A stretch of 64,000 nucleotides of DNA, taken from NCBI RefSeq assembly GCF_011927695.1, contig NZ_JAATJE010000001.1, positions 496,001-560,000 on the forward strand, read 5' to 3'. Positions 27,703 to 33,648 of the stretch are shown piece after piece. Within the stretch, counting starts at the first letter, position 1; every line of letters begins with the position of its first letter. The notes beneath the pieces are model-generated. The model saw nothing but the letters and a program-made list of their open reading frames with translations, did not search any database and was not told the origin of the DNA. This stretch comes from Sphingomonas jejuensis. GTDB lineage: Bacteria; Pseudomonadota; Alphaproteobacteria; Sphingomonadales; Sphingomonadaceae. A program made the translations under genes and the position numbers.

Positions 27703-29013
27703 ATGAGCTTTCCCTGGGCTGAGCAGTACAAGCCGAAGCACCCGCTGATGCAGTGGGTGGATGACCGGCTTCCGGTGCCGCGGCTGGTCTACAACGCGGT
27801 GGGCGCGGGCTATCCAGTGCCGCGCAACCTCAACTTCTTCTGGAACTTCGGCGTGCTCGCGGGCGCGGCCCTGGCCGTGCAGATCATCACCGGCATCGTG
27901 CTGGCGATGAGCTATGCCGCCAATGCCGGCGTCGCGTTCGACAGCGTCGAGCGCATCATGCGCGACGTCAACTCCGGCTGGCTGCTGCGCTATGCGCACG
28001 CCAACGGCGCGTCGATGTTCTTCATCGTGGTCTACCTCCACATCTTCCGCGGCCTCTACTACGGATCGTACAAGGCCCCGCGTGAGATGGTGTGGCTCCT
28101 TGGTCTGGTCATCTACCTGCTGATGATGGCCACCGCCTTCATGGGCTATGTGCTTCCCTGGGGCCAGATGAGCTTCTGGGGTGCCAAGGTGATCACCGGC
28201 CTGTTCTCGGCCATCCCGCTGGTCGGCGAGCCGATTCAAGTGTGGCTGCTCGGCGGCTTCGCGCCGGATAACGCCGCGCTCAACCGCTTCTTCTCGCTCC
28301 ACTACCTGCTGCCGTTCGTCATCGCCGGCGTGATCGTGCTCCACATTTGGGCGCTGCACATCCCGGGGTCGAACAATCCGACCGGCATCGAGGTGAAGGG
28401 TCCGCAGGATACCGTGCCCTTCCACCCCTATTACACGGCCAAGGACGGCTTCGGGTTGGGCGTGTTCCTGCTGGTGTTCGCCGCGTTGATCTTCTTCGCG
28501 CCGAACTTCCTGGGCCATCCGGACAACTACATCCCGGCCAACCCGCTCTCCACGCCCGCGCACATCGTGCCCGAATGGTATTTCTGGCCCTTCTACGCGA
28601 TCCTGCGCGCCTTCACCGTCGACATCCTGTTCGTGCCCGCAAAGCTGATGGGCGTGCTGGCGATGTTCTCGGCCATCCTGCTGCTGTTCTTCCTGCCGTG
28701 GCTCGACCGGTCGCCGGTGCGCTCCAGCAACTATCGCCCGATCTACAAGAAGTTCTTCTGGTTCGGCCTCATCCCGACGGTGCTCGCACTAGGCTACCTG
28801 GGCGGCGCGCCGGCTGAAGAGCCCTACGTCATGCTGTCGCAGTTCTTCGCGGCCTATTATTTCGCACACTTCCTCATCATCATTCCGATCATCTCGCGCA
28901 TCGAGCGTCCGCTCCCCATGCCGGGTTCGATCACGGACGCGGTGCTGAAGGGGCAGAGCGGCTCCACCATCTCGACCAGCACGCAGACCGCGCAGACGGC
29001 GCCGGCGGCTTAA
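27703..29013 (+). CDS. petB: Cytochrome b of the bc1 complex
   Basis: This is a 436-residue membrane protein with eight helices that carries haems bL and bH and the quinol sites. The PEWY-type motif is visible ([16 protein letters not shown]). Histidine ligands lie in helices B and D ([22 protein letters not shown] is split across them; [13 protein letters not shown]). [15 protein letters not shown] is the Qo-site cd helix. The Ser/Thr/Gln-rich C-terminal tail of about 30 residues is unremarkable for alphaproteobacteria. It sits between petA and petC. Confidence 0.97.
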
Positions 29014-29028
29014 GGGGAACGACGTCTC

Positions 29029-29883
29029 ATGGTTCGCATTGTCGGCATCCTCGTCGGCCTCGGCTTCGTCGGCGCGCTGCTGATCTCGCTCGTCTCGGGC
29101 CTGATCACCTACATCTCGGAGCCCGCCGTGGAGACGGCGGAGCACGCCTTCCACCTCCATCCCAAGGAGGTGCACTTCGCATCGGACGGCCCGACCGGCC
29201 ATTTTGATCGCCAGCAGCTGCAGCGCGGCTTTAAGGTGTATCGCGAGGTCTGCTCGGCCTGCCATTCGATGCGGCTGGTGGCCTTCCGCGATCTGGAGGC
29301 GCTGGGCTACAGCGAGGCCGAGGTGAAGGCGATCGCCACCCAGTGGCCGGTGCCGTCGCCCTCGATCAACCCCGACACGGGCGAGGCCGCGACGCGTCCG
29401 TCGGTCCCGGCCGATCGCATCCCGCCGCCCTACCCGAACGAGGTCGCCTCGCGCGCGGCGAACAACAATGCGCTGCCGCCCGACCTGTCGCTGATCTCCA
29501 AGTCGCGCCATGGCGGCGCCGCCTACATCTACTCGCTCCTGACCGGATACCGCGATCCCGCGACCTACCGGAACGAAGAGGGTGAGGCGCTGCCGGCCGA
29601 GAGCCAGCCGGGCCAGGGGCTGCACTTCAATCCCTATTTCGCGAACCTCAACATCGCGATGGCGCCGCCGCTGACCTCCACCGGTCAGGTGACCTATGCG
29701 GATGGCACCACGTCCACCGTCGATCAGATGGCGCGCGACGTGTCGGCCTTCCTGGTGTGGACGGCGGAGCCGAAGCTGGAGAGCCGCCACTCGACCGGCA
29801 TCGCGGTGATGATCTTCCTGCTGATCTTCACCGGCCTGGCCTGGATGGCGTACCGCAACATCTGGGCGGGCGTGAAGCACTAA
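29029..29883 (+). CDS. petC: Cytochrome c1 of the bc1 complex
   Basis: This is a 284-residue membrane-anchored c-type cytochrome. An N-terminal hydrophobic segment is followed by the haem site CSACH (near residue 76), with the Met ligand probably in the NIAMAPPL segment. One C-terminal helix (AVMIFLLIFTGLAWMAY) anchors the protein. It hands electrons from the Rieske centre to soluble or membrane cytochrome c. It is last gene of petABC, followed by a strong terminator. Confidence 0.96.
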   Translation: MVRIVGILVGLGFVGALLISLVSGLITYISEPAVETAEHAFHLHPKEVHFASDGPTGHFDRQQLQRGFKVYREVCSACHSMRLVAFRDLEALGYSEAEVKAIATQWPVPSPSINPDTGEAATRPSVPADRIPPPYPNEVASRAANNNALPPDLSLISKSRHGGAAYIYSLLTGYRDPATYRNEEGEALPAESQPGQGLHFNPYFANLNIAMAPPLTSTGQVTYADGTTSTVDQMARDVSAFLVWTAEPKLESRHSTGIAVMIFLLIFTGLAWMAYRNIWAGVKH

Positions 29884-31821: not shown

Positions 31822-31992
31822 GATCGATCCTTGATTGAAGCGCAGGGCGGAGGCGCCCGGTCGCGGGGGAATAGCGATGCGGCCACCGGATTGCCAGTTG
31901 CCACGCATGTCGGCGCGCGGGCAGGGGAGACGGGTGACGCAGCACCGCCGCCCGACCGCCGCTCCGCCCCGCAGCGGCCGAAGGCTCGCGGC

Positions 31993-33648
31993 TTGATCGT
32001 CTATGGCGATCAGGAGCGGTGGTCGACCGTCGCCGAAGAATGCGCCCGCATCGTCGCGGCTCGGGCGTCGCTCACGGGGGCGGGGCTCGACTGGCACGGC
32101 GCCCTTGCCCGATTGCTTCTGGAGGTCGCCGGGCTGCTGCAGGGCATCGCCGACCTCGAAATGGAGCAGGCTGGGGGGCGCGACACCGGGTCGCCGCGCC
32201 AAGGTGGGCTGATGCGCACGCTGATCACGCTGGCGGGGGCGCTCGACCGCTCCTGGCAGAGCGGCTTTGCCGATCAGTCGCTGCCGCCGCTCGATCTCTG
32301 CGCCGCCACCGACGAGCCGATCTGCGTCCGCAGGCCCGAAGGCTTCGCCTTCTACGCGCTCTATCCGGAACTCCATGCCGCCGCCGCCCGCGTGCTTGAG
32401 CCGGGAACGCAGGTGATCGGCCTGCGCAGCATCGGCACCGCGCTCGCCCCCATCGTTGCGGCTGCGGCAGGCAGCGATGCCGCAGCGACGCTCCGGCCGG
32501 TCGGGCATCCGTTCGGCCGCGCGCCGGCGGTCGGTGAGACGTTGGCCACCAAAATTACCACCGGAGCGGTCGCGATCGTCGACGAAGGCCCGGGGCTGTC
32601 CGGCAGCTCGATCCTCGGCACGGTTGATTGGCTGGAGGAGCGGGGCGTCGGGCTCGACCACATTGCGGTTCTTCCCAGTCACGCCGGTTCCCCCGGCCAC
32701 GCGGCGAGCGAGCACGGTCGCGCGCGCTGGAGCCGCTTGAGGCGGTACGTCGCCTCCTTTGACGACGTGGTGCTGGAGGGGCGCAACCCGCTCGCCAGCT
32801 GGTTCCAAGACCTGACCGGCCCGCCTTTGGCCCCGCTGGAGGATGTCGCCGGCGGCCGGTGGCGCCGGCATGTCGGACGGCCGGACCTGCCGGCACATCC
32901 CGGACGCGAGGCGCTGAAATGGCGGCTCGTCGCGGCAGGCGGCACCTTTCGCATCAAGTTCATCGGCCTAGATGCGGCCGGTGTGGCGGCTGGCGAGCGC
33001 GCTCGCTTCCTGGCCGAACGGGGACTGACGGTGGCGCCGCTCGCCCTGCGCTACGGCATGCTCCTGGAACGCTGGATCGACGATGCGATGTTCGGCCTGC
33101 CACCCGCCAGGAACCTCGATCTCCTGACCCGCTACCTCCGCGCGCGGGCGAACATGCCACCGCCGACACATGCCGGTGCCTCGCTCCGGACGCTTTCCAA
33201 AATGGCGCGCTTCAACCTCGCCACGGTCGTCGGGGAGGAGGCGGCGGCGGCGCTGCTTGCGCCATGGGGGGACGACCGGCTTGGCCGTCTTCAGGCGACG
33301 GTGCGACCGATCCATGTCGACGGGCGGCTGCATGACTGGGAATGGCTGCAGGTCGGCGGTCGCGTGCTGAAGACCGATGCGATCGACCATTCCCAGGCGC
33401 ACGATCTGGTCGGGCCGCAGGATGTCGCCTGGGACGTGGCTGGCGCGGCGATCGAGCATCACCTGGACGACGCTCAGGCCGATGCCTTGGCGGCCGCCCT
33501 AGGTACATCGGCGGAGCTCGTCGCCTTCTGTCGCCTGGCCTACCTCGCCTTCCAGCTCGGCTGGTGGTCCGAAACCGACGATCCCCAGGGCCGCGAACAG
33601 GCCCGGCGCTATGCCGCGCTTGCGCGTGAGATGGCCGAACAGCGTTAG
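31993..33648 (+). CDS. PRTase-like domain fused to a kinase-like domain, function unknown
   Basis: This is a protein of about 551 residues. The middle (about 140-240) resembles a phosphoribosyltransferase fold: VIGLRSIGTALAPIVAAAAG, then AIVDEGPGLSGSS in the position of a PRPP loop. The C-terminal third looks like a phosphotransferase lobe: FRIKFIGLD, YGMLLERWIDD, RPIHVDGRLHDWEWL, LKTDAIDHSQ and DVAWDVAGAAIE. The start is uncertain: no ATG lies before residue 55, and TTG 31993 is the best in-frame choice with a weak GAAGG upstream. It stands alone and is convergent with the DUF389 gene. Codon use looks native. No known pathway was recognised. Confidence 0.6.
   Translation: MIVYGDQERWSTVAEECARIVAARASLTGAGLDWHGALARLLLEVAGLLQGIADLEMEQAGGRDTGSPRQGGLMRTLITLAGALDRSWQSGFADQSLPPLDLCAATDEPICVRRPEGFAFYALYPELHAAAARVLEPGTQVIGLRSIGTALAPIVAAAAGSDAAATLRPVGHPFGRAPAVGETLATKITTGAVAIVDEGPGLSGSSILGTVDWLEERGVGLDHIAVLPSHAGSPGHAASEHGRARWSRLRRYVASFDDVVLEGRNPLASWFQDLTGPPLAPLEDVAGGRWRRHVGRPDLPAHPGREALKWRLVAAGGTFRIKFIGLDAAGVAAGERARFLAERGLTVAPLALRYGMLLERWIDDAMFGLPPARNLDLLTRYLRARANMPPPTHAGASLRTLSKMARFNLATVVGEEAAAALLAPWGDDRLGRLQATVRPIHVDGRLHDWEWLQVGGRVLKTDAIDHSQAHDLVGPQDVAWDVAGAAIEHHLDDAQADALAAALGTSAELVAFCRLAYLAFQLGWWSETDDPQGREQARRYAALAREMAEQR

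Follow-up and report, generated by a model that had tools for sequence, protein, structure and literature searches.

What does a single protein chain that seems to join a phosphoribosyltransferase (PRTase) to a kinase do in Sphingomonas jejuensis, and to which pathway does it belong? The question is raised by an open frame at 31993-33648 (+) of a 64,000-nucleotide stretch of contig NZ_JAATJE010000001.1 (the whole stretch is hereafter called the window), which had been read, from its letters alone, as a PRTase-like and kinase-like fusion with no known pathway.

Results

The fusion gene, delimited by its open frame, its relatives, their alignment and their start codons, comprises 551 codons plus a stop and begins with TTG. 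Both motifs quoted in the original prediction, AIVDEGPGLSGSS and HDWEWL...LKTDAIDHSQ...DVAWDVAG, are present in this frame and count among the best-conserved regions of the family. The missing ATG start, also pointed out at that time, is accounted for: the start is the TTG, fixed by the aligned starts of relatives, 29/29 assessable ones having ATG or GTG at the same start residue. Among 30 assessable rows (2 of the 32 are left out of the count, one running into a contig end and one being a MAG copy with a frameshift, which joins the alignment at residue 14), the aligned codon is ATG in 23, GTG in 6 and TTG in 1, that of the window, and a shared N-terminal motif follows. Because they are conserved across relatives, the gene and its start can be considered established. 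On a reading of the sequence, an AAGG about 8 bases 5' of the TTG may serve as a ribosome site, and an open frame of 920/1010 codons reaching further upstream was rejected as a gene, being a shadow frame antisense to ychF. Both genes that flank the fusion gene lie on the minus strand, namely ychF (Pfam YchF-GTPase_C; start complementary to 31821) on one side and a gene for a DUF389 protein on the other. Between ychF and the fusion gene there is a divergent intergenic region (31822-31992), their starts being about 171 bases apart. Among the ordinary housekeeping neighbours are the genes for cytochrome b and cytochrome c1 at 27703-29883.

A single scan of genome contigs returned 46 pattern stretches, 29 of which encode relatives of the fusion, and 2 further relatives were found among 59 sphingomonad-side relative genomes; 89 plasmid records held a match, 66 of them from Sinorhizobium, and 29 pattern matches on viral contigs included 0 relatives. 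These relatives align over the whole or most of the length of the window's fusion frame at roughly 30-46% identity. On genome contigs and plasmids the hosts are Methylobacterium, Roseicella, Rubellimicrobium, sphingomonads, Azospirillum, Roseomonas and Methylocaldum, and MAG hosts belong to Myxococcota, Verrucomicrobiales and Ilumatobacteraceae. The gene is kept across Sinorhizobium pSymB-type megaplasmids (63 records; L033 and L081 are S. meliloti pSymB), where it is labelled hypothetical protein wherever a gene table exists; the S. meliloti 1021 homologue occupies 253338-255086 of pSymB on the minus strand. One copy (genome G103, L080:18434-19932) lies in two pieces with a gap, possibly reflecting a frameshift or an assembly fault. 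Weak class-sample matches in G155, G431 and G424 (E 2e-7 to 2e-4) look like shadow frames and were dropped; they yield no single-domain relative. The tree does not group the window's protein with the starred clade of sphingomonads, nor is that protein contained in any starred set of at most half the rows.

The two halves are joined in every complete aligned member. The alignment holds 24 invariant columns, which include P115 E116 G117, G143 R145 I147 G148, D197 E198 G199 P200 G201 S203 G204, W290 R291, E306 and K309; 19 of the 24 lie in the PRTase half, the kinase-half count being depressed by rows truncated there. None of the 32 family members has a credible Pfam match (the hits were four isolated ones, each in a single member, the best at E 0.022), the Pfam PRTase and the Pfam APH/choline kinase models each scoring 0/32, and neither NCBIfam nor PADLOC matched any of the 32. 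A check against the Ter system (PRTase/TRSP models and TerD-type neighbours) gave no Pfam PRTase/TRSP match and no TerD-type gene in the subset of neighbours scanned. The open-access literature searched contained no description of a fusion of phosphoribosyltransferase and choline-kinase/aminoglycoside-phosphotransferase domains. The two-part protein is an undescribed domain architecture without a curated family model.

Modelled in full by AlphaFold2 on the family alignment, the protein reaches a pLDDT of 92.1 and a pTM of 0.91; its first 282 residues, modelled alone, reach a pLDDT of 91.7. According to alignment and model, the chain opens with a strand and helical segment of variable length (residues 1-107; 31993-32313, +), which begins with an MxVYGD-like family motif and is followed by the PRTase core (residues 108-257; 32314-32763, +), recognised from the alignment, the model and fold matches and carrying PEGFAFYA, GxRSIGT, RPxGHPxxR and the PRPP loop. 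The best structural match of the N-terminal half is PRPP synthetase 3mbi_C (Z 12.3, rmsd 2.9, 136 aligned), and 50/50 among the matches listed have the PRTase fold (PRPP synthetases, PRTases and PRTase-like proteins, PyrR, PRPP amidotransferase). The Foldseek ranking of this half is weak, APRT (E 9.1e-4) standing behind two aminotransferase rows; these two top rows, of 2o0r, are spurious (rmsd 18-20). The PRPP-loop-like segment D197-S206, DEGPGLSGSS (32581-32610, +), has the acidic pair D197/E198 in 32/32 aligned members, and the signature DExxxx[ST]Gx[ST] likewise occurs in 32/32. The canonical DDxxxTGxT spacing is found in 0/32, as is the canonical PRPP signature, PROSITE PS00103. The model thus shows the N-terminal half as a type I PRTase fold, for which PRPP-dependent transfer is a predicted activity.

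The C-terminal half (residues 258-551; 32764-33645, +) was assigned by a PDB profile search, Foldseek and structural alignment. Its model aligns to the choline kinase LicA (4r77_A; VIA Z 17.6, rmsd 4.7, 256 aligned; Foldseek E 5.5e-8), and the profile search against PDB sequences places the choline kinase family on top (E 0.0067); ribosomal S3a rows in that search (E 0.4-1.7) were dropped as chance, as was, separately, an ETF row (E 0.77). The LicA and family alignments locate a kinase catalytic loop, D443...E450 W451 (33319-33345, +), and the family alignment a second acidic/histidine motif, D462, H466 and H470 (33376-33402, +). D443 is conserved in 31/31 rows, D462 in 29/30 rows with a residue there, H466 and H470 in 30/30 each, and W480 and D481 in 30/30; E450, in 30/31, aligns to the position of the metal-binding Asn of LicA. 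The histidine of an HxD motif is not conserved in the kinase half, His441 occurring in 1/32 rows. The model shows a choline-kinase/APH fold with conserved catalytic acids. Structure prediction has therefore recovered, as models, both the PRTase fold and the kinase fold that the original prediction had proposed for the two halves. From the alignment, both look constrained as active sites, of unusual kinds; either could be catalytically altered, because the PRPP loop is non-canonical and the catalytic loop of the kinase is without its customary His and Asn.

Neighbourhood comparison and scans identified a recurring set of neighbours, comprising an inositol-3-phosphate synthase, a histidine phosphatase (CobC/MSMEG_4193-like), a TIGR04290 methyltransferase, a beta-xylosidase-like protein, three Glyco_trans_1_2 glycosyltransferases and one GT4, two NAD-dependent epimerases and a UDP-glucuronate decarboxylase-like SDR, with a TIGR04295 B12 radical SAM protein in some loci and inositol-dehydrogenase-like oxidoreductases in some. 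Annotated plasmid records show the same gene set. The fusion gene sits among these genes in 14 loci (L007, L014-L016, L020, L027, L029, L032-L035, L078-L080). The genome of the window carries the whole cluster outside the window (G000:C1:1461131-1472206; L042/L043), with 931,483 bases separating it from the fusion gene; it holds the TIGR04290 methyltransferase, inositol-phosphate synthase, four glycosyltransferases, two epimerases, a UXS-like SDR, the histidine phosphatase and the xylosidase-like protein. A variant of the cluster (L066, L069, L073-L077) has neither inositol-phosphate synthase nor histidine phosphatase in the stretch read and usually has TIGR04295. The open-access literature searched made no mention of TIGR04290, TIGR04295 or Rta_06860, and the main text of S. 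meliloti papers, searched with guessed locus-tag prefixes, yielded nothing on the cluster, the one match elsewhere being SMb20231, an ABC transporter protein.

The fusion gene and the TIGR04290 cluster are genomically linked. TIGR04290 scores over the cut-off in 23 of the 29 genomes holding a fusion locus, compared with 16/385 genomes of the class sample (Fisher p 4e-22, ignoring relatedness). Of the six other fusion genomes, five, all MAGs by title (G442, G456, G462, G463, G464), have no TIGR04290 match, and G451 has one that a contig end truncates. The counts for the fusion and for TIGR04290 are, respectively, 3/385 (omitting three weaker rows) and 16/385 in the class sample, 8/398 and 14/398 in the phylum sample, and 3 and 7 among the 59 relatives, TIGR04290 being present in every fusion genome of each sample. 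The co-occurrence p-values of the three samples (1e-3, 6e-5 and 2e-13) are only a guide, because related genomes are not independent and the window genome is counted in the relatives, class and phylum samples alike. Many TIGR04290 genomes have no fusion (13/16 in the class sample, 6/14 in the phylum sample and most among the relatives too), and the fusion is therefore best regarded as an accessory to the cluster. The genomic-context survey thus replaces the absence of any known pathway, as first stated, with one specific, functionally uncharacterised inositol/glycosyltransferase cluster that the fusion tracks.

A same-strand phosphatase directly adjoins the fusion in 15/29 loci and belongs to either of two unrelated families, histidine phosphatase in 8 and DSP in 7. 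No phosphatase adjoins the fusion in 13/29 loci, nor in the window, and one locus (L032) has a convergent one. The histidine phosphatase next to the fusion (8/29 loci) is of a subfamily other than that of the cluster, and in seven Methylobacterium genomes, Roseicella and a lichen Rhizobiales genome the adjacent phosphatase is additional to the cluster-type one. Methylobacterium and Roseicella genomes combine the histidine phosphatase of the cluster with a second, different one that immediately follows the fusion gene (cluster loci L082, L083, L085-L088, L090 and L091; fusion-side loci L005, L006, L008-L011, L017 and L019). In three Sphingomonas-type loci a DSP is present and no histidine phosphatase was seen, so the DSP could be a replacement there. 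The cluster histidine phosphatase was considered as a fusion-specific partner and rejected, since it occurs in 9 of 17 fusion-negative cluster stretches. In these stretches, which span 13.5-20 kb so that absences may be cuts, it is found in 9/9 with inositol-phosphate synthase and 0/8 without. Because it follows the synthase in this way, the cluster phosphatase probably serves inositol-1-phosphate, making myo-inositol, and it is for this reason no evidence for ribosylation. The fusion-adjacent phosphatases hint at, but do not prove, a step in which a ribosyl 5-phosphate is removed.

In the regions preceding 102 operon heads of these fusion and cluster loci, the strict pattern GGAAC-N15-18-CGTT has 6 sites and 0 antisense, as compared with a mean of 0.43 and a maximum of 3 in 200 Markov resamples. 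A relaxed pattern has 30 sites (resamples mean 2.98, maximum 9) and 21 antisense, an antisense count to which the near-palindromic form of the site and the divergent promoters contribute in part. Such GGAAC-N-CGTT sites resemble the EcfG promoters listed for Sphingomonas melonis in parts of PMC6599016 and suggest, as sequence motifs, that fusion and cluster operons may be under general stress control. EcfG/RpoE2-like sites stand 67-75 bases upstream of the leading gene in fusion or cluster operons at L005:5934, L012:2333, L029:2437 and L072:9039. The 300 bases scanned for the window fusion gene hold no EcfG-like site. A stress link is possible for the fusion and its cluster; it concerns regulation and carries no sign of a nucleotide signal.

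Discussion

Our analyses lead us to favour, tentatively, a reading in which the fusion is a PRPP-dependent two-domain enzyme that carries out tailoring as an optional part of a conserved pathway for an inositol glycan. The PRTase half would transfer ribose-5-phosphate from PRPP to a hydroxyl of inositol or of the glycan, the neighbouring phosphatase may then strip the 5-phosphate, as in known PRPP-dependent ribofuranose transfer, and the kinase half would transfer phosphate from ATP to that acceptor or to the product. A bolder proposal, which we consider rather doubtful, is that the protein is the first representative of a new system of PRPP-dependent O-ribosylation, in which a type I-fold PRTase with a loop signature of its own, fused to a divergent kinase, decorates a stress-regulated inositol glycan whose uncharacterised cluster is common to rhizobia, methylobacteria, sphingomonads, azospirilla and myxobacteria.

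These readings have to be weighed against three others. The PRTase half might bind PRPP or a nucleotide without catalysis, in the manner of PyrR or PurR, and gate a kinase acting on an inositol or glycan intermediate; PyrR is among the best structural matches of the N-terminal half (2igb_A, Z 11.2), though tied with enzymes, and in no member does the PRPP loop follow the canonical signature of the enzymes. However, the acidic pair and the loop glycines are invariant, as in a catalytic site, and such residues often drift once catalysis is lost, which makes a PRPP-sensing regulator an unlikely solution. Equally improbable in our estimation is that an inositol/cyclitol or sugar kinase is the essential part and that the PRTase half is a module handling pyrophosphate or a phospho-sugar, with no ribosylation. 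This would suit the kinase half, which lies closest to a characterised family by both profile and structure, and the inositol-type enzymes that recur in the cluster, but sits poorly with the fusion of the halves in all complete members and with the concentration of invariant columns in the PRTase half, partly truncated as the kinase-half rows are. The stand-alone base or sugar salvage enzyme, or stress-nucleotide enzyme, that was imagined at the outset has found no support. APRT, UPRT and HGPRT are indeed among the fold matches of the PRTase half, but the neighbours scanned include glycosyltransferases, inositol-phosphate synthase and epimerases instead of any nucleobase-pathway gene, and the co-occurrence with TIGR04290 is tight, so that a base/nucleoside salvage or stress-nucleotide role now appears very improbable.

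A domain architecture without a curated model is now tied to a concrete, conserved and testable pathway, and the fusion provides a way into the cluster that underlies the hypothetical equivalogs TIGR04290 and TIGR04295, in hosts that are genetically tractable (S. meliloti 1021, on pSymB, and Methylobacterium). Were ribosylation true, PRPP-driven glycan ribosylation would extend to inositol glycans and be paired with a kinase.

Compared with known systems, the fusion shares the core fold of its N-terminal half and the acidic pair of the PRPP loop with type I PRTases and PRPP synthetases (3mbi, APRT, PyrR), as well as, judging from its position, an RSIGT loop where they have the pyrophosphate loop, but its PRPP loop is one residue longer, and it has a long N-terminal helical segment, a fused kinase and no Pfam match. 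With LicA and other APH-fold kinases it has in common the fold, the catalytic Asp, the second Asp and the WD motif, whereas Glu450 replaces the Asn metal ligand, the HxD His is not conserved and the loop is longer, with its two conserved histidines. The TIGR04290/TIGR04295 cluster, known from NCBIfam as hypothetical equivalogs, is the genomic partner of the fusion and is present in the window genome, but only a minority of such clusters have the fusion, which has no model of its own. The closest functional parallel is offered by CriT of Hib Bcs3, described in portions of PMC10299916 as a PRTase-like domain that transfers O-linked ribose-5-phosphate from PRPP before trimming by a phosphatase, and by the related gPRT-PRP enzymes, described in PMC11127046. 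As in these systems, a PRTase-like domain is found in a glycan gene cluster, often with an adjoining phosphatase. Going by those descriptions, however, the fusion is set apart by its partner: its chain contains no HAD-type phosphatase domain, the second domain having a kinase fold, and on account of this fused kinase it is not a member of the gPRT-PRP/CriT-CrpP family, while the phosphatases near it are of the histidine or DSP type.
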